64,000 nucleotides of DNA from Salipiger pallidus (GTDB lineage: Bacteria; Pseudomonadota; Alphaproteobacteria; Rhodobacterales; Rhodobacteraceae): the NCBI RefSeq assembly GCF_014643635.1, contig NZ_BMJV01000001.1:496001-560000 (forward strand). Reading direction: 5' to 3'. Positions 15,676 to 29,746 of the stretch are shown here, piece by piece. Position 1 is the first letter of the stretch, and each line of letters opens with the position of its first letter. Under the pieces are notes generated by a model that saw nothing but the letters and a program-made list of their open reading frames with translations, was not told the origin of the DNA and ran no database searches. Position numbers and translations under genes: made by a program.

Positions 15676-17226
15676 CTAGTGGTTGGCTTCGGCCACAGTC
15701 GCACCGCCAAGATCGGCGGCGGCGATGGCCGTGTCGTAGTTGTCAAGAAGCGCTTCGACCGCAGGGCCGGTGATGTCCAGCGCAGCCGAGGGGTAGACCC
15801 CCAGCCACAGGGTCATCACCACCAGCGGCGCAAAGATCCAGCGCTCGCGCGGGGTCATATCCTGGATGGTCTTAAGGCTCTCTTTGATGAGATCCCCGAA
15901 GACCACCCGGCGATAGAGCCACAGAGCGTAGGCCGCCGAGAAGATCACCCCTGAGGTGGCGAACAGGGCAACCCAGGTGTTGACCTGGAAGATCCCCATG
16001 AGCGTCAGGAACTCCCCGACAAAGCCCGAGGTCCCCGGAAGGCCCACATTGGCCATGGTGAAGAACATGAAGACCAGCGCATAGGCGGGCATGCGGTTCA
16101 CGAGGCCGCCGTAAGCGTCGATCTCGCGGGTGTGCATGCGGTCGTAGATCACGCCGACGCAGAGGAACAGCGCGCCCGAGATGAAGCCGTGGCTGATCAT
16201 CTGGAAGATCGCGCCGTCGACGCCCTGCTGGTTGGCGGTGAAGATGCCCATGGTCACGTACCCCATGTGGGCGACGGACGAATAGGCGATGAGCTTTTTC
16301 ATGTCCTCCTGCACCAGCGCGACCAGCGAGGTGTAGACGATGGCGATGGCGCTCATCCAGAAGATCAGCGGTGCCATCACCTCGGACCCCACCGGGAACA
16401 TGGGCAGGCTGAAGCGCAGGAAGCCATAGCCGCCCAGCTTCAGAAGGATCGCTGCCAGCACGACCGAACCCGCGGTGGGCGCCTGAACGTGCGCGTCGGG
16501 AAGCCAAGTGTGCACTGGCCACATGGGCATCTTGACCGCGAAGCTGGCGAAGAAGGCCAGCCACAGCATGGTCTGCATGCCGCCGACGATGTGGATGCCC
16601 AGCACCTCGAAGTCCGCGAAGGCGAACTGGTGGGTGAGCAGCGTCGGGATATCAGTGGTCCCTGCGTCCGCATACATGGCGACCATGGCCACCAGCATCA
16701 GCACCGACCCAAGGAAGGTGTAGAGGAAGAACTTGAACGACGCGTAAATGCGGTTCGCCCCGCCCCAGATGCCGATGATGAGGAACATCGGGATCAGCCC
16801 TGCCTCGAAGAACAGGTAGAACAGCACCAGGTCCAGCGCCATGAACACGCCGAGCATCAGCGTTTCCAGCAGCAGGAAGGCGATCACGTATTCCTTCACC
16901 CGGCTCTTCACGTCCCAGCTGGCGAGGATGGTCAGCGGCATCATGAAGGTGGTGAGCATGACGAACAGCACCGAGATGCCGTCGACGCCCATCTTGTAAC
17001 GCAGGCCCATGATCCATTGGCCCTCTTCCACCATCTGGAAGCCGGTCTGCGACCGGTCGAACTGGAAGAAGATGAACAGCGAGATCACGAAGGTCGCGGT
17101 GGTTGCGATCATCGCCAGCCACTTGGCATTCCGGTCCGCGGCCGCGTCGCCCCCGCGCAGGAACAGCGCGAGGATCGCCGCCGCAAGCGCGGGCAGGAAG
17201 GTGACGATGGACAGAAGGTTATCCAT
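15676..17226 (-). CDS. nuoM: NADH-quinone oxidoreductase subunit M
   Basis: A 516-residue antiporter-like subunit of the complex I membrane arm. Motifs include [16 protein letters not shown] (membrane glutamate), [19 protein letters not shown] and [18 protein letters not shown], with the key lysines of the proton channel. The ATG at 17226 shares one base with the nuoL stop (TAATG). Ten codons of open frame upstream are not part of the gene. Confidence 0.96.
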
Positions 17227-19529
17227 TAGTGTGCCCCTCCGGAGATCGACATCCATGTGACGAGAAGCACGATCCCGATCACCATGGCGAAGGCGTAGGT
17301 AAAGATGAAGCCGGACTGCGCGCGGCCCGCAAGCTTGGTGAAGAAGGGAATGATCCCCATGGCAAGGCCGTTGATGCCGCCGTCAATGACGCCACCATCG
17401 CCGCGCTTCCAGAAGAAACGGCCAAGGCCCTTGGCGCTGCGCACAAAGAGGAAGTCATAGGCCTCGTCGAAGTACCACTTGTTGAGCAGGAAAAGGTACA
17501 GCGGGCGTTGCTGTTTGGCCAGCTTGCGCGGCAAGGTGGGGTTCACGATGTAGAACCAGTACGCCACGCCGAACCCGATGAGCATCGCCACGAAGGGCGT
17601 CAGCTTGACCCAGACCGGCGCGTGGTGCGCGTCATCCATGACCGTGTTGTCCGGGGCCATGTAGATGGCGCCATACTCAAGACCGGCGGCGGGGGCGGCG
17701 TGATTGCCGTCTTCACCCGCGGCGTCGTCTGCCATTGCAGTCGCTTCCGCGCCCTCTTCGATGGCGGTGTCAGCGGTTACGGTGCCTTCCGCGCCCTCTT
17801 CGGTGGCGGTGTCGGCGGTTGCGGTGCCTTCCGCGCCCACTTCGGTGGCGGTGTCGGCGGTTGCAGTCTCTTCCGCAGCCGCTTCACTTGAGGCTTCGGC
17901 AGGTGCAGCCTCATCCGCGCCCTCACCGGTCGCGGTGTCGGCCATGGCGGTCTCTTCGCCGTGCGCCGCCTCTTCGCCGTGCTCGGAGGCCTCGGCGTGG
18001 TGAGCAGGCATGCCGAAGAAGCTCAGCACCTTGTCGTGGTTTCCGAAGAAACTCGAATAGAACACCATCCCCGAGAAGATCGCACCGATGGCAAGCACGC
18101 CAAGCGGGATGGTCATCACGCGCGGGCTTTCATGGGCGTGGTCGTGGGTGTGCTTGTCCCCCCGTGCCTTGCCGTAGAAGGTCATGAACATGAGACGCCA
18201 GCTATAGAAGCTGGTGAACAGCGCCGCGATGACCAGCATCCAGAAGGCGTAGCCGCCGCTGGTGCCGGCCCATGCGCTTTCGATCACCGCGTCCTTCGAC
18301 ACAAAGCCCGCAAAGCCCAGCCAGCCGGTCAGCGGGATGCCCACGCCGGTGATGGCAAGGGTGCCGATCATCATGGCCCAGAATGTCAGTGGGATCTTGT
18401 GGCGCAGGTTGCCGTAGTTCCGCATGTCCTGTTCGTGGTGCATCGCATGAATGACCGAGCCCGCGCCAAGGAACAGCATGGCCTTGAAGAAGGCGTGGGT
18501 CAGCAGGTGGAACATGGCCACCGGGTAGACGCCGACGCCGGCGGCGACGAACATGTAGCCCAGCTGCGAGCAGGTCGAATAGGCGATGACGCGCTTGATG
18601 TCGTTCTGCACGAGCCCGATCGTTGCGGCGAAGAACGCCGTGGTGGCCCCAAGGAAGGTGATGAAGGCCGTGGCGTTCGGTGCGAATTCCATCAGCGGCG
18701 ACATCCGGCAGACGAGGAACACGCCCGCGGTCACCATGGTGGCCGCGTGGATCAGCGCCGACACCGGGGTCGGGCCTTCCATCGCGTCGGGCAGCCAGGT
18801 GTGCAGCAACAGCTGCGCCGACTTGCCCATCGCGCCGATGAACAGCAGGAAGGCGATCAGCTCAGCCGCGTTCCAGTCGGTCCACAGGAAGTGCAGCTCG
18901 GTTTCCGCAATGGTCGGCACAGCGGCGAAAATGTTGTCGAACTGGATGCTGTCGGTCAGGAAGAACAGGCCGAAAATCCCCAGCGCGAAGCCGAAGTCGC
19001 CCACGCGGTTGACCACGAAGGCCTTGATCGCCGCAGCCCCTGCCGACGGCTTCTTGTAGTAAAAGCCGATGAGCAGGTAGGACGCGAGGCCCACACCTTC
19101 CCAGCCGAAGAACATCTGCACGAGGTTGTCCGAGGTCACCAGAGCCAGCATCGCGAAGGTGAAGAGCGACAGGTATGCGAAGAACCGGGCGCGGTAGGGC
19201 GTGTGTTCGAACTGCGGGTCATGCGCCATGTAGCCGAAGCTGTAGAGGTGCACGAGCGCCGACACCGTGTTGATCACAATGAGCATGATCGCCGTCAGCC
19301 GGTCCACCCGGATCGACCAGTCAGTCGACAGCGTACCGCTTTCGATGAAGCGGAAGAGCGTGACGGTATGCGCCTCGCCAAGGGTCAGGAACACGATCCA
19401 GGACAGCAGCGCGGCAAGGAAGAGCAGGCCCGTGGTGGTCCACTGCGCGCCCTTCTCGCCGATGAACTTCCAGCCGAAGCCGGCGATGATGGCCCCGATC
19501 AGCGGAGCGAAGAGAATGATCGTCACCAT
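17226..19529 (-). CDS. nuoL: NADH-quinone oxidoreductase subunit L with expanded Ala/Glu/Thr repeat loop
   Basis: A 767-residue distal proton-pumping subunit of complex I, longer than the roughly 610-710 residues usual for bacteria. Core motifs are intact: [59 protein letters not shown]. The C-terminal lateral helix and last transmembrane helix are present ([20 protein letters not shown] onward). The extra length is an acidic low-complexity stretch at about residues 520-604 made of 14-residue repeats, in the loop before the lateral helix. It follows nuoK by 6 bp. Confidence 0.96.
17719..17970. repeat. 42-bp tandem repeat array inside nuoL
   Basis: Six consecutive 42-bp units (17719, 17761, 17803, 17845, 17887, 17929), the middle ones nearly identical and the outer ones diverged. 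Each encodes 14 residues of the type [14 protein letters not shown], so changes in copy number keep the reading frame. The array encodes NuoL residues about 520-604. Confidence 0.9.
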
Positions 19530-20053: not shown

Positions 20054-20656
20054 TCAGAGGCCCTGCCCCGGCTTCACGTCTTTCAGCTCCATGGCCTTGG
20101 CCGGATCGCGGTACATCTGCGCCAGCACGTTCTGGCGTTTGACATCCTGGCGGTGGCGCATGGTCAGCACGATTGCCCCGATCATTGCCACCAGCAGGAT
20201 CAGACCCGACAGCTGGAAGGCGAGGAAGTAGCGGTCATAGAGCAGCACGCCGATGGCGGCGGTGTTGTGCATGTCCGTCGGCGTCGGCGCGGTGGAGAGC
20301 TCGGCCGCCATCTCGGAGGTTTCCCAGACACCGAAGGCCATACCCAGCTGCATCAGCAGCACGATGCCGATCAGCAGCGCGAGGGGCATGTATTTCGCCA
20401 TGCCCGCGCGCAGTTCGGCAAAGTCCACGTCCAGCATCATCACCACGAAGAGGAACAGCACCGCGACCGCGCCCACGTAGACGATCACCAGCAGCATCGC
20501 CACGAATTCCGCCCCGAGCAGAACGAACAGCCCCGCCGAGCTGAGGAAGGCGAGGATCAGCCAGAGCACCGAATGCACCGGGTTGCGGCTTATGACGGTG
20601 AACAGCCCGCCCACGATGGCGCACAGGGCAAAGAGATAAAAGGCAAAGACCATCAT
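20054..20656 (-). CDS. nuoJ: NADH-quinone oxidoreductase subunit J
   Basis: A 200-residue subunit of the complex I membrane arm with five hydrophobic segments; the conserved helix 3 region reads [20 protein letters not shown], where a pi-bulge controls coupling. The start (ATG ATG at 20656/20653) overlaps the stop of the upstream carboxymuconolactone-decarboxylase-like gene as ATGA, so the two are translated together. Confidence 0.96.
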
Positions 20657-21057
20657 GCGTCGTCATCCTTGTTGTCTTCCATGACCTCGCGCGCCAGCTC
20701 CATGGCGCGGGTCATGGCGGGTATGCCGGCGAACATCGATATATGCGCGATGGTCTCGGCGATCTCGTCCTTGGTGGCGCCGGCCTCCATGAGGTGGCGC
20801 ACGGTCATGCGCACCGGCGTGTCGGCCTGCGCGCCCTGCATGGTCAGCCCGGCCAGCGTCAGAAGAAGCCGGGTCTTGGAATCAAGGCCCTCCTTCGACA
20901 TGCCACGCCCGAACCAGAATTCCATGAACTCCTTTGGCATGGTCGGCCAGAGCTTTTCGTATTCCTTGGGACTGAAGTTCTCGAGGGCGGGATTGAACAT
21001 CCGCGCCATCTCCTGTGCCTGCGCCATCATCAGCTCGAAGGGGGTTTTCTCGCTCAT
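20653..21057 (-). CDS. carboxymuconolactone decarboxylase (CMD/AhpD-like) family protein inside the nuo operon
   Basis: A 134-residue all-helical protein. The CMD core is seen as [19 protein letters not shown] followed by [19 protein letters not shown] and [16 protein letters not shown]. The two redox cysteines of AhpD (CxxC) are absent, so a peroxidase role is unlikely; such proteins form trimers or hexamers and some bind small aromatic molecules. It lies between nuoI (84 bp) and nuoJ (4-bp overlap), so it is made in step with complex I. Its role there is unknown. Confidence 0.82.
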
Positions 21058-22688: not shown

Positions 22689-23090
22689 TCACACCATCGG
22701 TATTCCGTTCTCGGCACAGGCCAGGGCGACGACTTCCGCGTCTATGGTTTTCAACCCTTGGGGCAATGCAGCCGAGATCGTGTAAACAGCATCTCCGCGC
22801 CAGAGGCCACCCTCCTGCGCGACATTTGTTCGCAAGTGACGGGCAAAGCCGTAACCGCGAATGAGCGCATATTGTGCCGCAGCGCAGCGCGCGTAATCCT
22901 CCACGTCGCCCGTGTCGCGGGCGCCGCGCATGGCGACGAAGAAATTCACCAGATCTCCGTCAAGCAGGGCCGTGTCCACCCCTTCATACACGGGCTCGAA
23001 CGGCGCTTCGGGCGCCTGCGAGGTGGTCTCGCAGGCGGTGAGCGCGCCAAGCGCCGCAAGGGATATGAGCAGACGGCCCATCAACGTCAT
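22689..23090 (-). CDS. predicted lipoprotein between nuoG and nuoH
   Basis: A 133-residue protein with a signal peptide and lipobox LTAC (lipid on Cys20). The exported part has exactly two more cysteines (ARCAAAQ and LACAENG), fitting one disulfide. No known domain is recognised. Its ATG overlaps the nuoG stop as ATGA and it ends 10 bp before nuoH, so it is an integral part of the nuo operon. A periplasmic lipoprotein cannot touch NuoG, which sits in the cytoplasm, so a role at the periplasmic face of the membrane arm or in assembly is possible. Confidence 0.75.
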
Positions 23091-25108
23091 TCCGCCGCCA
23101 GTGGCGCGTCGCGACGTGCCTTGGCGTTGGCCGACAGCTCAGCCATGAGCACGGACGAGCGGGCGATGGGGTTGGTCAACCAGAAGTCCCTTACCGCGTA
23201 GCGGAAAGACGCGTCGCCAAGCGATCCCGTCTCGGGCGCGGACCAGTCGTTCTCCGCAACGGTGTCGATGCCCGCAAGATGCGGCACCGCCTCGATGAGC
23301 GCGCGGCGCAGCTGCGCCATGCTGTCCCAAGGCAGCTTCGCGCCGATCTCGGCCGAAAGCGCCCGGAAGATCGCCCAGTTTTCCTTGGCCTCTCCCGGCG
23401 GGAAACAAGCGCGCAGCGCCAATTGAGGGCGGCCTTCGGTGTTCACGAACAGGCCGTTCTCCTCGGTGTAGGCGGCGGCGGGCAGAATGACGTCGGCGCG
23501 ATGTGCACCGCGGTCGCCGTGGCTGCCCTGATAGATCACGAACGGCCCGTCGCCGATTTCGATCTCGTCCGCGCCGAGGTTCCAGACCACGTCGGCCCCC
23601 TCCATCGCAGCGTCCATGCCGCCGTCTGTCACTGCACCCACGTCCATCGCTCCCACGCGGGAGGCGGCGGTGTGAAGCACCATGAACTTCGACTTGGTAT
23701 CGGCGGCCAGCTTCATCGCGGCGGCCAGCACCGCAGCACCGTCTGCCTCCTGCAGGGCGCCCTGTCCCACGATGACGACCGAAGGCGCGTCCAGCACCTT
23801 GTTGTAGCTCTTGCCCAGAAGCGAATTCAGTGCCGCCCGGTCGTTGCCCACATGAGCATAATCATAGGTCAGATCGACCGCCTCGCCCACGAGGCCCACG
23901 TTCGCGCCCGCGGCCCAGGCCTTGCGAATGCGCGCATTCAGCACCGGCGCTTCCTCGCGCGGGTTGGTGCCGATCAGCTGGATGAATTTCGCGTTATCGA
24001 TGTCGTCGATGGTGGCGGTGCCCACGTAGCCCGAACGGTTGCCCGCCGGCAGTTTCGCGCCATCGGTGCGGCATTCGACGGACCCGCCCTGCCCCTCGAT
24101 CAGGGTCTTGAGCGAGAATGCCGCCTCCACCGGGGCGAGGTCGCCCACGAGGCCCACGGGCTTTTTCGCGCCCTTCATGGCTTCGGTGACCTTGGACAGC
24201 GCCTCGGGCCAGGTGGCGGGCTTCAGCTTGCCATCCACGCGGATATAAGGCCGATCAAGACGCTGGCGGCGCAGGCCGTCCCAGACAAAGCGGGTCTTGT
24301 CGGAAATCCATTCCTCGTTCACGCCGTCATGGTTGCGCGGCAGGAAGCGCATCACTTCGCGGCCCTTCGTGTCCACGCGGATCGACGAGCCAAGCGCATC
24401 CATCACGTCGATGCTCTCGGTCTTGGTCAGCTCCCACGGACGGGCGGTGAAAGCGTAGGGCTTCGACACCAGCGCGCCCACCGGGCACAGGTCGATGATG
24501 TTGCCCTGCAGGTTCGAATCCAGCGTCTGGTTGAGGTAGCTGGTGATTTCCGCATCCTCGCCGCGGCCGGTCTGGCCCATCTGGGTGATGCCCGCCACCT
24601 CGGTGGTGAAGCGGACACAGCGGGTGCAGGAAATGCAGCGCGTCATGTGGGTTTCGACCAGCGGCCCAAGGTCGAGGTCTGTCACCGCGCGCTTCGGTTC
24701 GCGGTAGCGGCTGAAATCGACGCCGTAGGCCATAGCCTGGTCCTGAAGGTCGCATTCACCGCCTTGGTCGCAGATCGGGCAATCCAGCGGGTGGTTGATG
24801 AGCAGGAACTCCATCACCCCCTCGCGGGCCTTCTTGACCATGGGCGAGTTGGTCTTGATCACGGGCGGTTGGCCTTCCGGGCCGGGGCGCAGGTCGCGCA
24901 CCTGCATGGCGCAGGAAGCCGCAGGCTTGGGCGGGCCGCCGACGACCTCTACAAGGCACATGCGGCAGTTGCCCGCGATGGACAGCCGCTCGTGGTAACA
25001 GAAGCGGGGGATCTCGATCCCGGCCTCTTCGCAGGCCTGGATCAGTGTCATCGCCGGATCGACTTCCAGCTCTTCCCCGTCGATGATGATCTTGCGCAGG
25101 TCACTCAT
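23087..25108 (-). CDS. nuoG: NADH-quinone oxidoreductase subunit G
   Basis: A 673-residue iron-sulfur subunit of the complex I peripheral arm. In order: a 2Fe-2S ferredoxin domain ([19 protein letters not shown]), the His-ligated cluster motif [19 protein letters not shown], the cluster motif [10 protein letters not shown], then a molybdopterin-oxidoreductase-like domain that has lost its cofactor. I chose ATG 25108 over 25114 because GGGA is well spaced (8 nt) only for the second. Confidence 0.97.
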
Positions 25109-25135
25109 TGGCATATTCCCAGACAGAATGCGGTG

Positions 25136-25159
25136 ACGGGGCGCTGCGTGGCGCCCCGT
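25136..25159 (-). other. hairpin in the spacer between the DUF5333-like gene and nuoG
   Basis: ACGGGGCGC pairs with GCGCCCCGT around TGCGTG, a perfect 9-bp stem 28 bp upstream of the nuoG ATG on the transcript. There is no T-run, so an mRNA stability or processing element is more likely than a terminator. Confidence 0.55.
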
Positions 25160-25201
25160 GGCCCGGCATTGCGGGCGTCAGGCTGTGGCCCGCGCCGCGC
25201 A

Positions 25202-25624
25202 TCACCGTGCTCTCAGAAGCTGACCGATGGCCGAGCCCCTCTCGATTTCCTCACGCCCGACGCGGCAATAGCCTTCGGACTGCCCGAGGGTCACGCCCCT
25301 CGCCTGCAGCCAGGCTTCGCCCTCGGCGCGGTATTTCTTCTTCTCAGCCTTCGAGGTTACGTAATCCTCGATCTCCTCGTCGGAGTAGCCCATCGACCGG
25401 GCGGTCGACTTGAGCGAGTTGAGGTAGCTGTAGGCGGTGATCATCCGCGCGCTGACATCGTCACATTTCTTGCGAATCTCGTCCGCGATGCCGACGGCCA
25501 GAAGGCCCTGGTGAACCGCGTCCACTTCGCCCAGCGATGCGCGGGCCGCTGCAGGCCCCGCCGAAAGCCCCGCCGCGAGGGCAAGCGCCCCCAGCATGGC
25601 CTTGACCGATCTGGATGCAAACAT
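25202..25624 (-). CDS. DUF5333-like exported protein
   Basis: A 140-residue protein with a cleavable signal peptide (basic start, LGALALAAGLSAGPAAARA) and a helical domain containing ADEIRKKCDDVSAR, MGYSDEEIEDYVTSKAEKK and SEGYCRVGREEIERGSAIGQ. I recall this pattern as DUF5333 of Rhodobacteraceae. The mature part has exactly two cysteines. The ATG at 25624 has GGGAG 7 nt upstream and is preferred over upstream starts. It lies between two nuo genes (F side and G side) and shares the C-terminal pattern of the lipoprotein at 26114-26539. Confidence 0.75.
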   Translation of the reverse strand: MFASRSVKAMLGALALAAGLSAGPAAARASLGEVDAVHQGLLAVGIADEIRKKCDDVSARMITAYSYLNSLKSTARSMGYSDEEIEDYVTSKAEKKKYRAEGEAWLQARGVTLGQSEGYCRVGREEIERGSAIGQLLRAR

Positions 25625-25692
25625 GTGTCGTCTCCCGTACATGGTTCCGACCTCCGAACGGAGGCCTCCATGTGGGAAGGTGACGATGCAGG

Positions 25693-25715
25693 GGGCGGTC
25701 ATGCAATCACCGCCC
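25693..25715 (-). other. hairpin in the spacer upstream of the DUF5333-like gene
   Basis: GGGCGGT pairs with ACCGCCC around a 9-nt loop between the lipoprotein gene at 25747 and the DUF5333-like gene. It resembles the other spacer hairpins that border accessory ORFs of this operon. Confidence 0.45.
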
Positions 25716-25746
25716 GAGCACATCCCCGTTATGACGGCCCCTTGTG

Positions 25747-26097
25747 TCACTCGCGGCAGGTCCCCTGGAAGGTCAGCTTGTCGCCCTCTACCGGCAGCTG
25801 AGCCTGCGGCGTGTCCGGCCCGACGGCCCAGTCGATGTCCGAAGTACCCAGATATTTGATGCAGTAGCGGATCCCTTGGTACTCGGTGGCACCGATCGCA
25901 CCCTCGAGCGACGCACTCACCGGACCGCCGGTGGCGACAAAGCTCGCCCGGTCGCCGCGAACGCGCTTGGCGTCGCCGGTAAAGACCATGCCGCCATATT
26001 CGTACCGCTTGGCCTTGGAGCCGAAGACGCTGCAGCCCGCCAGCGTTGCAAGCGCCAGCCCAAGCAGCATTCCGTTCCGTGCCATTCCTCGTTTCAC
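25747..26097 (-). CDS. predicted lipoprotein in the nuoF-nuoG interval
   Basis: A 116-residue protein if read from the GTG at 26097, which has AAGGA 6 nt upstream; an ATG at 26085 is the alternative but its GAGGA touches the start codon. Signal peptide with basic N-terminus and lipobox LAGC (Cys22 lipidated). The mature part is probably beta-rich (YEYGGMVFTGDAKRV, ASFVATGGPVSASLEG) and has two cysteines (RYCIKY and QGTCRE at the very end), likely a disulfide. No known family is recognised. Confidence 0.72.
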   Translation of the reverse strand: MKRGMARNGMLLGLALATLAGCSVFGSKAKRYEYGGMVFTGDAKRVRGDRASFVATGGPVSASLEGAIGATEYQGIRYCIKYLGTSDIDWAVGPDTPQAQLPVEGDKLTFQGTCRE

Positions 26098-26113
26098 GTC
26101 GTCTCGTCCTTCT

Positions 26114-26539
26114 TCACATGGTCCGCAGGGCCTGCCCCACCGGGCTGCCCTCCGCCATTTCCTGCCGCGCAGCGGCGCAAAGCGTCGCGGGCTGCGCCGG
26201 GCTCGCGCCGGTGCGGGCCATCCAGGCGTCAACCGCTGCCATGGTGCGGTCAAAATCATGGGTCATGAACAGCGCATCAAGTGCGGCGCGATCTTCGCCT
26301 TCGGCCACCATTTGCTCGGTCACGCGGTTGACCGCCCCGCCGTAGGGAGACGACGCAAGGTAGATCCCCTCGCCGTAGCAGTTGTCGGCGATCCGCTCCG
26401 CAATCGTCTGAGTGGCGACGCGCGCCTCCCAGCGATCCTTGAGCGAGCCGCTGGCCGCAGTGGTGCCGACGCTGGCGGACGGACCGCAGGCGGTCAGCGC
26501 AAGCGCAACAAACGGATATGCAGGCAAAAAGCGCATCAT
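26114..26539 (-). CDS. predicted lipoprotein overlapping nuoF, distant paralogue of the DUF5333-like protein
   Basis: A 141-residue lipoprotein (lipobox LTAC, Cys18) whose ATG overlaps the nuoF stop as ATGA. The mature domain aligns by eye with the DUF5333-like protein at 25202-25624: IAERIADNC matches IADEIRKKC, and [20 protein letters not shown] matches YCRVGREEIERGSAIGQLLR. Both keep the same two cysteines. It therefore looks like an ancient duplicate, one copy lipid-anchored and one free in the periplasm. Function unknown. Confidence 0.75.
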
Positions 26540-27831
26540 TCCGCCGCCATCGCGCCCATGCGGCCGGTCTTCTTGGCCTTGATGCGGTCTTCGATCTCTT
26601 CGCGGAAGTGGCGGATGAGGCCCTGGATCGGCCAGGCCGCCGCATCGCCGAGCGCGCAGATGGTGTGCCCCTCGACCTGCTTGGTCACATCCAGCAGCAT
26701 GTCGATCTCCTCGACCTCTGCCTCGCCCGATACCAGCCGGTCCATGACCCGCATCATCCAGCCGGTGCCCTCGCGGCACGGGGTGCACTGGCCACAGCTT
26801 TCATGCTTGAAGAACTTCGACAGGCGCCACACCGCCTTCACCACGTCCACCGAGTTGTCCATGACGATCATACAGCCGGTGCCGAAGCTCGAGCGGTTCT
26901 CGCGCATCCAGTCGAAATCGAAGATCGCATCCTCGAGCTTGTCCTTGGGCAGGATCGGGCAGGACGCGCCGCCGGGGATGATGGCCTTGAGGTTGTCCCA
27001 GCCGCCGCGGATGCCGCCGCCATGCTTTTCGATGAGCTCGCGCACGGGCAGCGACAGCTCGTCCTCGAAGACGCAAGGGGTGTTCACGTGGCCAGTCAGG
27101 CCCATGAGCTTGGTGCCCGAGTTGTTCTTGCGCCCAAAGCCCGAGAACCAAGACGCACCGCGCCGCAGGATGGTCGGGCAGACGGCGATGGACTCCACGT
27201 TGTTCACCGTGGTGGGGCAACCATAAAGGCCCGCGCCCGCCGGGAACGGCGGCTTCATGCGCGGCATGCCCTTCTTGCCCTCGAGGCTTTCGATCAGGGC
27301 AGTTTCCTCGCCGCAGATGTAGGCCCCCGCCCCGTGGTGCAGGTAAAGGTCGAAATCCCAGCCCGAGCCGCAGGCGTTCTTACCGATGAGGCCAGCGTCA
27401 TAGCATTCGTCGATGGCGGCCTGCAGGGCCTCCTTCTCGCGGATGTATTCGCCCCGGATGTAGATGTAGGACGCATGCGCCCCCATCGCGAAGGACGCGA
27501 TCAGCGCACCCTCGATCAGCGTGTGAGGATCGTGGCGCATGATCTCGCGGTCCTTGCAGGTCGCGGGTTCGGATTCGTCGGCGTTGATGACGAGGTAATG
27601 CGGACGCCCGTCGCTTTCCTTGGGCATGAAAGACCACTTCAGCCCGGTCGGAAAGCCCGCCCCGCCCCGGCCACGCAGGCCGGATGCCTTCATCTCGTCC
27701 ACGATCCACTCGCGGCCCTTCTCCAGGATCCCGGCGGTCCCGTCCCAATGGCCACGCTTTTTCGCCCCCGCCAGCGTGCGATCATGCATGCCGTAGAGAT
27801 TGGTGAAAATGCGGTCCTCGTCCTTCAGCAT
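26536..27831 (-). CDS. nuoF: NADH-quinone oxidoreductase subunit F (NADH- and FMN-binding)
   Basis: A 431-residue NADH dehydrogenase subunit of complex [19 protein letters not shown] is the NADH-binding glycine motif, [18 protein letters not shown] and [20 protein letters not shown] contact FMN, and the cluster N3 motif [14 protein letters not shown] with a later cysteine in [10 protein letters not shown] is complete. The ATG at 27831 starts MLKDEDRIF, matching the family; 13 codons upstream are not part of it. Confidence 0.97.
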
Positions 27832-27835
27832 CGCA

Positions 27836-28063
27836 TCACTCCTCGTTCGCGCGGGCGGCCCGGCGCGCACGCCATAGCCCGAAAATCATCCAAATCGCCG
27901 TCCCGAACCCGGCAATCGCCGCCAGGTCGAAGAAAGCCCGAGTGCGCTGGCTCCAGTCCAGCGCGGCACCGGCAGCGGTGGCGGCCATCCAGGCCAGGCC
28001 CGTTCCGGCGATGACGAGCGCGATGATGCGCCCCTGCCGGTTATGATCCTGCCGGCCCGTCAT
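27836..28063 (-). CDS. DUF5337-like small membrane protein between nuoE and nuoF
   Basis: A 75-residue protein with two predicted transmembrane helices ([20 protein letters not shown] and [18 protein letters not shown]) and a basic C-terminal tail ([11 protein letters not shown]). I recall this as DUF5337, a small Rhodobacteraceae family found beside complex I genes. It ends 4 bp before the nuoF start. It may be a species-limited accessory membrane subunit or assembly factor. Confidence 0.75.
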
Positions 28064-28115
28064 GCCGTCCGCCTCTCAATCCCTCCGGCGCAGATGTCAG
28101 CCGGCTTTATTCCTG

Positions 28116-28138
28116 CCTGACCGGATTGGCCGGTCAGG
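28116..28138 (-). other. perfect 9-bp hairpin downstream of nuoE
   Basis: CCTGACCGG pairs with CCGGTCAGG around ATTGG in the 121-bp space between nuoE and the DUF5337-like gene. There is no T-run, so it probably protects or processes the mRNA. Confidence 0.6.
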
Positions 28139-28184
28139 TTCACGTCTCGCAGCGCGACCGGGTGCATTCCCCCCAGCGCGTGTC

Positions 28185-29315
28185 TTAGCTTTCACCGGCC
28201 CCTTCGCCCGTGGACAGCGCCTTGGCCTGCGACACCCATTCGTCGCGGGTCACGCGGCCTCGGAAGCCCTGAAGGTTCTCGTCGACCCACGCGACTTCCG
28301 CATCGGTCCAGCCGGCGATCTGGTCGAAGTGGTAGAAGCCCAGCTCGTGGCACAGCTCCTCGAGCTTCGGCCCGATGCCCTTGATCTGCTTGAGGTCGTC
28401 CGCCCCGCCATCGCGCGGCCCTTCGAGGGCGTCGGGACGGGTGCCAGCCTGCTGCTCCTCGGCCGACGCTCCTTCGGCGGCGTCCTTGACCTCGGTCGCA
28501 TTTTCAACCGGCGCTTCGCGCTTGTCGATGCCGGTACTGTCGGCGGGCACATCCTCGGCCAGCTCAGGCGCATGGGTTTCCGGCTTGGCATCACCCTTCT
28601 CATCCGAGCGGTCATGCCACGGGGTGCGCAGCGGCACCTCGGTGCCGTCGATGCGTTTGATGGTGTCGCCGAGTTCGGTCGCCAGCGCGACGGAGGCGTT
28701 GTATTCCGGACGCCCCTCCACATGGCCGGTCAGCACGACCGGGCCGCCCAGCGGTTCGGACGAATAGCGGCCGTTCTGCGGGCCCGGCACCGGCACATTG
28801 CCGGCGGCCAGCTCGTCCAGAAGCTCGCCAAGGCGAGCCGCGGTCAGGTCTTCGTAGTAATCCTTGCCGATCTGGGCCATGGGCGCGTTGGCACAGGACC
28901 CAAGACACTCCACCTCTTCCCAGGAGAACTTGCCGTCCTCTGATAGCATGTGCGCCTTGGGGGCGATCTTGTCCTTGCAGACCGAAATCAAATCCTCGGA
29001 TCCGCAGATCATGCAGGTCGTGGTGCCGCAGATCTGGATATGCGCGACCGAGCCCACCGGCGAGAGCTGGAACATGAAGTAGAAGGTCGCCACCTCGAGC
29101 ACGCGAATGTAGGCCATGCCCAGCATCTCGGCCACGGTCTCGATGGCCCGCTGGCTGAGCCAGCCTTCCTGTTCCTGCGCACGCCACAGCAGCGGGATGA
29201 CCGCGCTGGCCTGACGGCCCTCGGGATACTTGGTCATCTGGGCATCGGCCCAGGCCAGGTTGGCATCGGTGAAAGCAAAGCTTTCGGGCTGTTCGGGATG
29301 AAGACGGCGCAGCAT
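28185..29315 (-). CDS. nuoE: NADH-quinone oxidoreductase subunit E with C-terminal helix-hairpin-helix extension
   Basis: A 376-residue protein. The first about 170 residues are a complete NuoE thioredoxin-like domain with the 2Fe-2S cluster N1a ligands in CGTTTC and CLGSC. An acidic, alanine- and proline-rich linker follows (about residues 200-310). The last 60 residues ([20 protein letters not shown] and on to [10 protein letters not shown]) form a helix-hairpin-helix-like domain also seen fused to other alphaproteobacterial proteins. E. coli NuoE is only 166 residues. The extension is common in Rhodobacterales by my recollection; its partner is unknown. Confidence 0.94.
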
Positions 29316-29359
29316 CGGGTCGGTCCTATCGGGTCAGCACGCTAAGGTGCAGGCGGGGC

Positions 29360-29394
29360 GGCAGGCCGCGGCCTGCCCTGCCCGGCAACCGGGC
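29360..29394 (-). other. two adjacent hairpins between the lipoprotein gene and nuoE
   Basis: GGCAGGCC/GGCCTGCC (29360-29377) and GCCCGG/CCGGGC (29380-29394) are two perfect stems lying side by side in the 101-bp spacer upstream of nuoE on the minus strand. They have no T-runs. Confidence 0.55.
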
Positions 29395-29416
29395 AACGGT
29401 TGGGTCTTGGCCGCGA

Positions 29417-29746
29417 TCACGCAGCAGACTCGGGCGCGGGGGTATCGACCACCGGCGCCGCCGGGGTGCAGGACCCCGAGATCAGACGGAAACCACCGCT
29501 TTCGGTCATCTCTGCCTCGCCACGGGTGATGCGGTACTGCGCCACCTCGTTGATCTTCATGCGGGTCATGCCGGTCTGAAGTTCGACGGGCAGGTAGTCG
29601 GATTCATAGGTAAGCTCGCAGCCGATGGAGGCCACCGCATCGTCGAAGGCGGCGAGATCCTCGTCCCCGGTGCCCTCGGGCGGCATGGCAACGCACGCGG
29701 CGGTGGCGATGAGAGGCAGCAGGCTCAGGCACATCTTCAGCTTCAC
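29417..29746 (-). CDS. predicted lipoprotein between nuoD and nuoE
   Basis: A 109-residue protein read from GTG at 29746 (AGGGA 9 nt upstream); an in-frame ATG four codons later is possible. Signal peptide with lipobox ATAAC (Cys18). The exported part has two cysteines (IGCELTYES and SGSCTP), likely one disulfide, and an acidic start and proline/alanine-rich end. No known domain. It is framed by hairpins on both sides within the nuo operon. Confidence 0.72.
   Translation of the reverse strand: MKLKMCLSLLPLIATAACVAMPPEGTGDEDLAAFDDAVASIGCELTYESDYLPVELQTGMTRMKINEVAQYRITRGEAEMTESGGFRLISGSCTPAAPVVDTPAPESAA

Follow-up and report, generated by a model that had tools for sequence, protein, structure and literature searches.

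The nuo operon of Salipiger pallidus encodes exported two-cysteine proteins that are real and mostly undescribed. They were analyzed in a window of 64,000 nucleotides (contig NZ_BMJV01000001.1, positions 496,001 to 560,000), in which five of them lie among the complex I genes (Table 1). The explanation that we prefer is that they are lineage-specific factors in the periplasm that assist complex I or its assembly, either transient or lost on purification, and we judge the chances of this being correct to be evenly balanced. A periplasmic accessory or assembly module had been predicted from the DNA; the export signals, the cysteine pairs, the linkage to nuo genes, and three families without a Pfam model agree with it, whereas the joint occurrence of all five proteins does not hold.

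Table 1. Exported open reading frames and associated genes in the nuo region (positions within the window).
Feature	Position	Strand	Remarks
nuoL with long acidic Ala/His-rich insert (residues ~490-638)	17226..19529	-	
Lp4 lipoprotein	22689..23090	-	ATGA overlap with nuoG stop; directly upstream of nuoH; Cys spacing 56
DUF5333 (PF17267) secreted protein	25202..25624	-	2 invariant Cys, spacing 66
Lp3 lipoprotein	25747..26097	-	Between nuoF and nuoG; 2 conserved Cys, spacing mostly 35 in relatives
Lp2 lipoprotein, second DUF5333 copy	26114..26539	-	ATGA overlap with nuoF stop
DUF5337 (PF17272) small membrane protein	27836..28063	-	Between nuoE and nuoF; 0 Cys; associated gene, outside the exported set
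Lp1 lipoprotein	29417..29746	-	GTG start; between nuoD and nuoE; 2 conserved Cys ~50 residues apart

All five exported open reading frames are present where they had been placed, on the minus strand. A simple gene finder based on codon usage, for which the nuo genes of the window served as the training set, called all of them coding; it put later starts on three of the five and shortened them. The export claim also stands, as the N-terminal signals are clear by eye or by a simple rule. Inspection of the sequences found a lipobox with its cysteine in Lp1 to Lp4 (TAAC, LTAC, LAGC, and LTAC among the four), and the secreted DUF5333 protein has a cleavable signal peptide as judged by eye. The mature part of each protein has exactly two cysteines beyond the lipidated one, as described earlier, and the two ATGA overlaps claimed on nuo stops were found at nuoF/26539 and nuoG/23090.

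The original prediction of five separate proteins is right for the open reading frames but not for the families. Lp2 and the secreted protein score 38.1 and 137.3 bits, respectively, to PF17267 (curated cut-off 27), and because these two are paralogues, the set comprises four sequence families. The Pfam entry for DUF5333, above whose cut-off both window copies lie, assigns no function; the nuo linkage, the second copies, and the invariant cysteine pair set out here go beyond it. Lp1, Lp3, and Lp4 of the window matched 0 Pfam families each in a Pfam scan. Among their relatives (41 members of Lp1, 44 of Lp3, and 43 of Lp4 scanned), only weak Pfam matches were found, each in a single member, and the Paracoccus Lp4, which has a long N-terminal part, gave a single weak match (E 0.19).

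Profiles of the mature parts were compared in 15 pairs with column shuffles as a reference. The pair of Lp4 and DUF5333 (A2) was marginal, with 1/60 shuffles as good. None of Lp1, Lp3, and Lp4 counts as a DUF5333 member; for Lp1 and Lp3, 11/60 and 44/60 shuffles, respectively, were as good against the mature DUF5333 profile (A2). The lowest values overall were 1/60 (A1-A2) and 2/60 (A2-A5 and A4-A5), and at least 7/60 shuffles were as good in the other pairs. Judged by these profiles, distant kinship among the families may exist. A common origin of Lp4 and Lp3, to which hhalign gave 89% probability, was rejected, as the signal vanished without the signal peptides (21/60 column shuffles as good). 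The predicted structure of DUF5333 is all-helical save for two short strands (mean pLDDT 90.2), and that of Lp4 combines strands with two helices (mean pLDDT 90.5). Foldseek found no PDB fold match below E 0.001 for either model, the best being 2.7 for DUF5333 and 0.019, to an ACT-like domain, for Lp4.

The two mature cysteines are kept across relatives in 100/100% of DUF5333 (130 rows, second copies included), 100/100% of Lp3 (66 rows), 100/98% of Lp1 (61 rows), and 97/97% of Lp4 (116 rows). They are spaced by 56 in 90/90 Lp4 lipoproteins having just two, by 66 in 98/113 secreted DUF5333 proteins having just two, by mostly 50 in Lp1, and by mostly 35 in Lp3. According to a simple rule, the lipid cysteine column is occupied in 85% of Lp4, 95% of Lp3, and 49% of Lp1 rows. 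The weight rests on cysteine conservation because a bare count of exactly two may not be rare. Specifically, four genes in a small control set of 139 passed the rule for small exported proteins and three of these four had two cysteines; for at least two of these genes, the call as exported seems wrong. Near-invariant pairs in four families without detectable kinship would also be in keeping with redox switches, in which reversible cysteine pairs signal the thiol state of the envelope to complex I biogenesis. We consider such switches very improbable, as structural disulfides account for the invariance equally and the DUF5333 and Lp4 models match no known fold significantly. Moreover, CXXC spacing was found in none of the four families, and the active site of thioredoxin- or DsbA-type thiol oxidoreductases is absent.

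The tie of the exported genes to the nuo operon holds across most of the family. Lp4 has one match per genome in the 152 family genomes listed and lies immediately upstream of nuoH in 116/116 genomes open to comparison; in 63 of these 116 loci, Lp4 can start in frame with an overlap of 4 or 1 nt on the nuoG stop. DUF5333 is located between nuoF and nuoG in the fetched loci. Lp3 was compared in 48 cases; in 46 of them it is 2.0-4.7 kb upstream of nuoH, and the remaining two are on different contigs. Two candidate exceptions to the linkage were dismissed. In genome G532 the operon itself is split by ~1.4 Mb, with DUF5333 still behind nuoF and Lp4 still between nuoG and nuoH. In genome G559, for which no Lp4 is listed, DUF5333 and nuoG are on one contig and nuoH is on another.

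DUF5333 occurs in 154 and Lp4 in 152 of 199 genomes of Rhodobacteraceae, the family of the window. In samples of the class they were detected in 6/387 and 4/289, respectively, all within this family, and the description of the module as alphaproteobacterial is therefore too wide. The idea that all five proteins co-occur also fails. A copy like Lp2 was found by tblastn of the searched loci in only seven other loci, all Salipiger or Alloyangia, and all four families are missing from 9/129 operons. The six pairs of DUF5333, Lp4, Lp3, and Lp1 gave no significant association by independent pairs, which is a weak test (closest Lp3-Lp1, median p 0.07). The presence pattern offers no support for a single obligate module of these proteins.

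On a tree of 124 loci, the minimum number of presence changes is 16 for DUF5333, 13 for Lp4, 14 for Lp3, and 24 for Lp1. The median identity to the window in loci with a tblastn match is 44% for DUF5333, 40% for Lp3, 53% for Lp1, and 65% for Lp4, and reaches 79-90% for Nuo subunits. Lp4 is the most conserved of the exported set; among 43 members selected from 115, 37 positions are invariant. In other genera, the nuoF-nuoG gap holds further exported two-cysteine open reading frames of different sequence. Such frequent changes, the fast divergence of DUF5333, Lp3, and Lp1, and the additional open reading frames in the gap would fit small envelope proteins that are unrelated to complex I and ride the nuo transcript and its permissive gaps as passengers, with a disulfide merely for folding.

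The lipoprotein signals point in the same direction. An aspartate at position +2 retains lipoproteins in the inner membrane of E. coli, a rule that may not hold in this group. This residue was found in 8/92 Lp4, 2/63 Lp3, and 4/39 Lp1 lipoproteins and in 0/4 of the window, and its scarcity would, by the E. coli rule, suggest an outer membrane location. However, Lp4 is single in each listed genome, adjoins nuoH in every genome compared, and is strongly conserved, and both DUF5333 and Lp4 kept their nuo neighbors in the split operon of G532. We regard passengers as rather unlikely.

The Paracoccus denitrificans operon (genome G675, whose NuoH is 100% identical to 8qby_H) encodes homologues of DUF5333 and Lp4, each of which keeps its two cysteines, and one of DUF5337. 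The DUF5333 and Lp4 proteins of this one species matched no PDB chain, and the family profiles gave no convincing match to PDB chains, the best, that of Lp3, being to an antibody chain (E 0.0087). DUF5333 and Lp4 are thus not built into the solved Paracoccus complex I, which argues against firm structural subunits. Their absence suits passengers and is also expected of transient or weak partners. Extra open reading frames between the nqo/nuo genes of P. denitrificans and Rhodobacter capsulatus were reportedly noticed, as unidentified reading frames, in the literature of the 1990s. The export, the one-cysteine-pair pattern, and the distribution were not found in the literature searched, which left most subscription journals outside its reach, and 0 papers in it use the term DUF5333.

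A further explanation is that the proteins are loosely bound structural subunits, a bacterial counterpart of the disulfide sole that mitochondrial complex I has on its intermembrane-space face, or a supercomplex glue, which are lost in detergent. In mitochondrial complex I, NDUFA8, NDUFS5, NDUFB10, and NDUFB7 are small proteins with disulfides that lie on the positive side of its membrane arm, according to the accessible part of PMC8762328, and the likeness is that small cysteine-pair proteins, here with predicted disulfides, are directed to the same membrane face. In addition, the distal membrane subdomain is in part lost when the Paracoccus enzyme is purified (PMC11522691, accessible part), which also counts in favor of transient or weakly bound accessory factors. 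However, added periplasmic density is not reported in that part of the same paper, the Paracoccus proteins match no deposited chain, and there are operons from which all four families are absent. CX9C (CHCH) subunits have two CX9C motifs and four cysteines, whereas one pair with a spacing of mostly 33-67 is found here, combined with Sec or lipoprotein export, sequences without detectable mutual relationship, and absence from the bacterial enzyme as solved. Loosely bound subunits are, in our estimation, improbable. Paracoccus complex I also has supernumerary subunits (NDUFS4, NDUFS6, and NDUFA12 homologues, and PIMT), which are likewise additions to the 14-subunit core, but they sit in the peripheral or hydrophilic arm as described in the accessible parts of PMC8115037 and PMC11522691, whereas the proteins of the nuo operon have export signals and match no solved chain. 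Tn-seq of R. sphaeroides showed that growth on LB requires the 14 nuo subunits; the small genes go unmentioned in the accessible part of that study (PMC5513736).

In an accessory or assembly role at complex I, the exported proteins would be made from the nuo operon itself and leave the cytoplasm via Sec; most Lp1, Lp3, and Lp4 proteins would be lipoproteins, and most DUF5333 proteins would be soluble. Each would be folded around a single structural disulfide and would most likely work at the periplasmic surface of the membrane arm while complex I is assembled or maintained, and would stay outside the purified enzyme. We infer the formation of the disulfides, the location at complex I, and the assembly or stabilizing role. 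The scarce +2 aspartate in Lp4, Lp3, and Lp1, which would suggest the outer membrane, counts against this reading, as do the frequent presence changes without detectable association, the fast divergence of three of the families, the nine operons that have none of the four, and a non-significant association with the NuoL insert. The nuoL gene contains tandem repeats (17735-17957), and its insert was considered as a docking site. DUF5333 and Lp4 are both missing in 6/115 loci with the insert and in 6/9 loci where it is absent (<=40 aa), out of 124 loci. Rank tests, in which relatedness is ignored, gave p values of 0.002 and 0.013; with independent pairs (5 pairs) the association did not reach significance, and the docking site was rejected.

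A bolder proposal, which we hold to be a long shot, is that in living cells of Rhodobacteraceae a labile layer of small one-disulfide proteins covers complex I on its periplasmic side and would hold or assemble the membrane arm. Such a layer would be independent of the CX9C sole and would be lost in detergent and hence missed, and the nuo gaps would represent a nursery that repeatedly recruits new exported two-cysteine proteins. Paracoccus complex I serves as a bacterial model for the mitochondrial enzyme, and on the periplasmic side of the solved structure there is no additional protein. If periplasmic factors from the operon serve complex I in the cell, this model enzyme has an unexamined assembly or stabilizing system, and a parallel to the mitochondrial disulfide-bonded sole would have arisen separately. 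Even if the proteins are passengers, three families without Pfam models would be recorded with a fixed place in a central operon. The candidate system is directly testable in P. denitrificans and Rhodobacter sphaeroides.

Two other genes inside the nuo operon had been omitted from the original prediction. A carboxymuconolactone-decarboxylase-like gene lies between nuoI and nuoJ. The other encodes DUF5337, which scores 89 bits to PF17272 in the window (cut-off 27) and was found in 124/129 operon loci.

The most striking pattern in these operons is the occurrence of several small, predicted exported sequences, with one cysteine pair each and no visible relationship to one another, in the nuoF–nuoG gap. 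Outside six models, 91 ORFs in these gaps look exported (shadow ORFs included), and 43 of them have exactly two mature cysteines. Among the 91, one cluster has 14 members, 12 of them with exactly two, and three smaller clusters have 4, 4, and 3 members, with two in every member; further clusters consist of membrane proteins that lack the two-cysteine pattern. Profiles of two gap clusters, A5 and A6, showed no clear kinship to each other or to the four exported families Lp1, Lp3, Lp4, and DUF5333 (profile A2), the A2–A5 and A4–A5 comparisons being marginal.

The minus strand of the window reads nuoA, B, C, D, Lp1, E, DUF5337, F, Lp2, Lp3, DUF5333, G, Lp4, H, I, a carboxymuconolactone-decarboxylase-like (CMD-like) gene, J, K, L, and M. 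The nuo genes were named by sequence and by the usual gene order; nuoE and the small genes were named by family scans. The five exported ORFs lie where the original prediction had placed them, two with ATGA start overlaps on the stops of nuoF (Lp2) and nuoG (Lp4), and a simple gene finder that had learned from the nuo genes of the window picked all five.

Coordinates of nuoE, nuoL, and the small genes of the nuo operon in the window
Feature	Position	Strand	Remark
Lp1	29417-29746	-	predicted lipoprotein
nuoE	28185-29315	-	C-terminal extension in product
DUF5337	27836-28063	-	small membrane protein, between nuoE and nuoF
Lp2	26114-26539	-	predicted lipoprotein
Lp3	25747-26097	-	predicted lipoprotein
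DUF5333	25202-25624	-	secreted protein
Lp4	22689-23090	-	predicted lipoprotein
CMD-like gene	20653-21057	-	between nuoI and nuoJ
nuoL	17226-19529	-	tandem repeats at 17735-17957

The five proteins, originally treated as separate entities, reduce to four families, as a family scan assigned both the secreted protein and Lp2 to DUF5333 and left Lp1, Lp3, and Lp4 as separate families. The window's members of these three had no Pfam match with an E-value of 1 or less, nor any NCBIfam match above a curated cut-off; further members (41 Lp1, 44 Lp3, and 43 Lp4) gave only weak Pfam hits, each from one member. Second DUF5333 copies are present in other lineages too, and Lp2 as such has a tblastn match in 7 other loci.

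Both mature cysteines are kept in homologues of DUF5333 (100/100%, 130 rows), Lp3 (100/100%, 66 rows), Lp1 (100/98%, 61 rows), and Lp4 (97/97%, 116 rows). A single export rule with a crude cleavage step, run over the nuo-gap ORFs of 137 loci, gave a count of exactly two mature cysteines for 125/126 DUF5333, 62/66 Lp3, 51/56 Lp1, and 94/107 Lp4 proteins. The spacing is 56 in all 90 Lp4 lipoproteins having just two. Since each protein combines one cysteine pair with an export signal, these sequences suggest one structural disulfide per protein. Three to four Lp1-like cysteine-pair domains occur in tandem between nuoD and nuoE in loci L047 (four repeats), L073, L081, and L118, partly as one multi-domain exported ORF.

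In predicted models, DUF5333 is helical (mean pLDDT 90.2; best PDB match E 2.7), and Lp4 has strands and two helices beyond the signal peptide (mean pLDDT 90.5). Helices 60–77 and 118–128 of Lp4 carry one cysteine apiece (C69 and C125), and its best PDB match, an ACT-like domain, was not significant (E 0.019).

Within samples drawn from the class, DUF5333 was found in 6/387 genomes and Lp4 in 4/289, all in Rhodobacteraceae; one further Rhodobacteraceae genome among the 289 had no Lp4. DUF5337 matched 5/192, of which the 3 above the cut-off belong to this family. Among 199 genomes of the family sample, NuoH was present in all, DUF5333 in 154, and Lp4 in 152 with a single match in each; Lp3 was found in 64 of 150.

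For 116 of the 150 Lp4 places listed, the genome also has a listed nuoH place, and in 116/116 Lp4 stands directly upstream of nuoH on the same strand (median gap 15 nt). In 63/116, Lp4 has an available in-frame start that overlaps the stop of nuoG; in the remainder, the shortest listed distances to that stop are mostly 0–9 nt. Lp3 was compared in 48 of its 64 genomes and lies 2.0–4.7 kb upstream of nuoH in 46, the other two being on other contigs. Across the first 99 loci retrieved (two were duplicates), the matches of each family fall within its own interval, except one each at the locus edge; because these loci were picked around DUF5333, only the whole-genome comparison gives unbiased linkage. 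In genome G532, the operon is split between DUF5333 and nuoG into parts ~1.4 Mb apart, and the small genes each kept their neighbour.

A single obligate module, with all five genes co-occurring as the original prediction proposed to check, was not supported. In the 129 loci (out of 137) that span nuoD to nuoH, a set enriched in DUF5333 by choice and in which diverged members may be missed, DUF5337 was present in 124, Lp4 in 111, DUF5333 in 99, Lp3 in 64, and Lp1 in 50; all four exported families occur together in 34 and none in 9. On a FastTree phylogeny of NuoD, F, G, and H (124 loci), the minimum presence changes were 16 for DUF5333, 13 for Lp4, 14 for Lp3, and 24 for Lp1. Independent-pairs tests were significant for none of the six family pairs (median p: DUF5333–Lp4 0.375, DUF5333–Lp3 0.625, DUF5333–Lp1 1, Lp4–Lp3 0.625, Lp4–Lp1 0.25, and Lp3–Lp1 0.07). 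This weak test, with 10–14 mostly uninformative pairs each, fails to support a joint unit without disproving one.

Genome G675 was taken as Paracoccus denitrificans because its NuoH matches 8qby_H at 100% identity across 344 residues. In its operon we found DUF5337, DUF5333, CMD-like genes, and an Lp4 that is longer (258 aa) and retains both cysteines, and detected neither Lp1 nor Lp3. The DUF5333, Lp4, and DUF5337 proteins of this genome had no match among PDB chains (best E 0.56 for DUF5333 and 0.87 for DUF5337, none for Lp4), and the four family profiles had no convincing PDB relative, the strongest being an antibody chain (E 0.0087, Lp3). The 2.3 Å Paracoccus structure was modelled with 17 known subunits and PIMT, and a distal-arm density in it was an artefactual bc1 complex (PMC11522691); the passages describing mass spectrometry of the purified enzyme make no mention of these proteins (PMC8115037). 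Hence none of DUF5333, Lp4, and DUF5337 is a firm subunit of the enzyme as prepared.

A periplasmic aid to complex I assembly or stability is the most likely role. Overlapping or close starts would couple the amounts of these proteins to NuoF, NuoG, and NuoH. Once exported and oxidised, they would reach the growing membrane arm from the periplasmic side, perhaps meeting it at protruding loops such as the long NuoL insert, and their binding may not be retained in detergent. The rarity of Asp at lipoprotein position +2 and the operons without any of the families count against this role. The main rival is that they are passengers on the nuo transcript.

Extra reading frames within these nuo operons were already noticed decades ago, and the database entries for DUF5333 and DUF5337 give no function. 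As far as our literature searches show, it is new that these proteins share an export and one-cysteine-pair pattern, that three of the families have no Pfam model, and that the proteins are missing from the solved enzyme; the counts of linkage to nuo genes are also new.

Other features of the operon were also recorded. DUF5337 is its most constant extra gene, and the CMD-like gene is retained in 108/129 loci. The NuoE extension resembles tails within NCBIfam models of ribosomal proteins L21 and S2 and of phasin; in Paracoccus (L140), an ORF of its own between nuoE and nuoF combines a similar tail with a membrane anchor. The NuoL insert of the window is acidic and Ala/His-rich, and its coding sequence contains 42-bp tandem repeats; at 148 aa, the stretch measured here is the longest of 124 loci, the shortest being 34 aa. 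Locus L044, from a record titled Enemella evansiae (an actinobacterium), carries an operon of the window's kind with matches equal to those of G388, coded in Rhodobacteraceae, and its title or assembly looks mislabelled.
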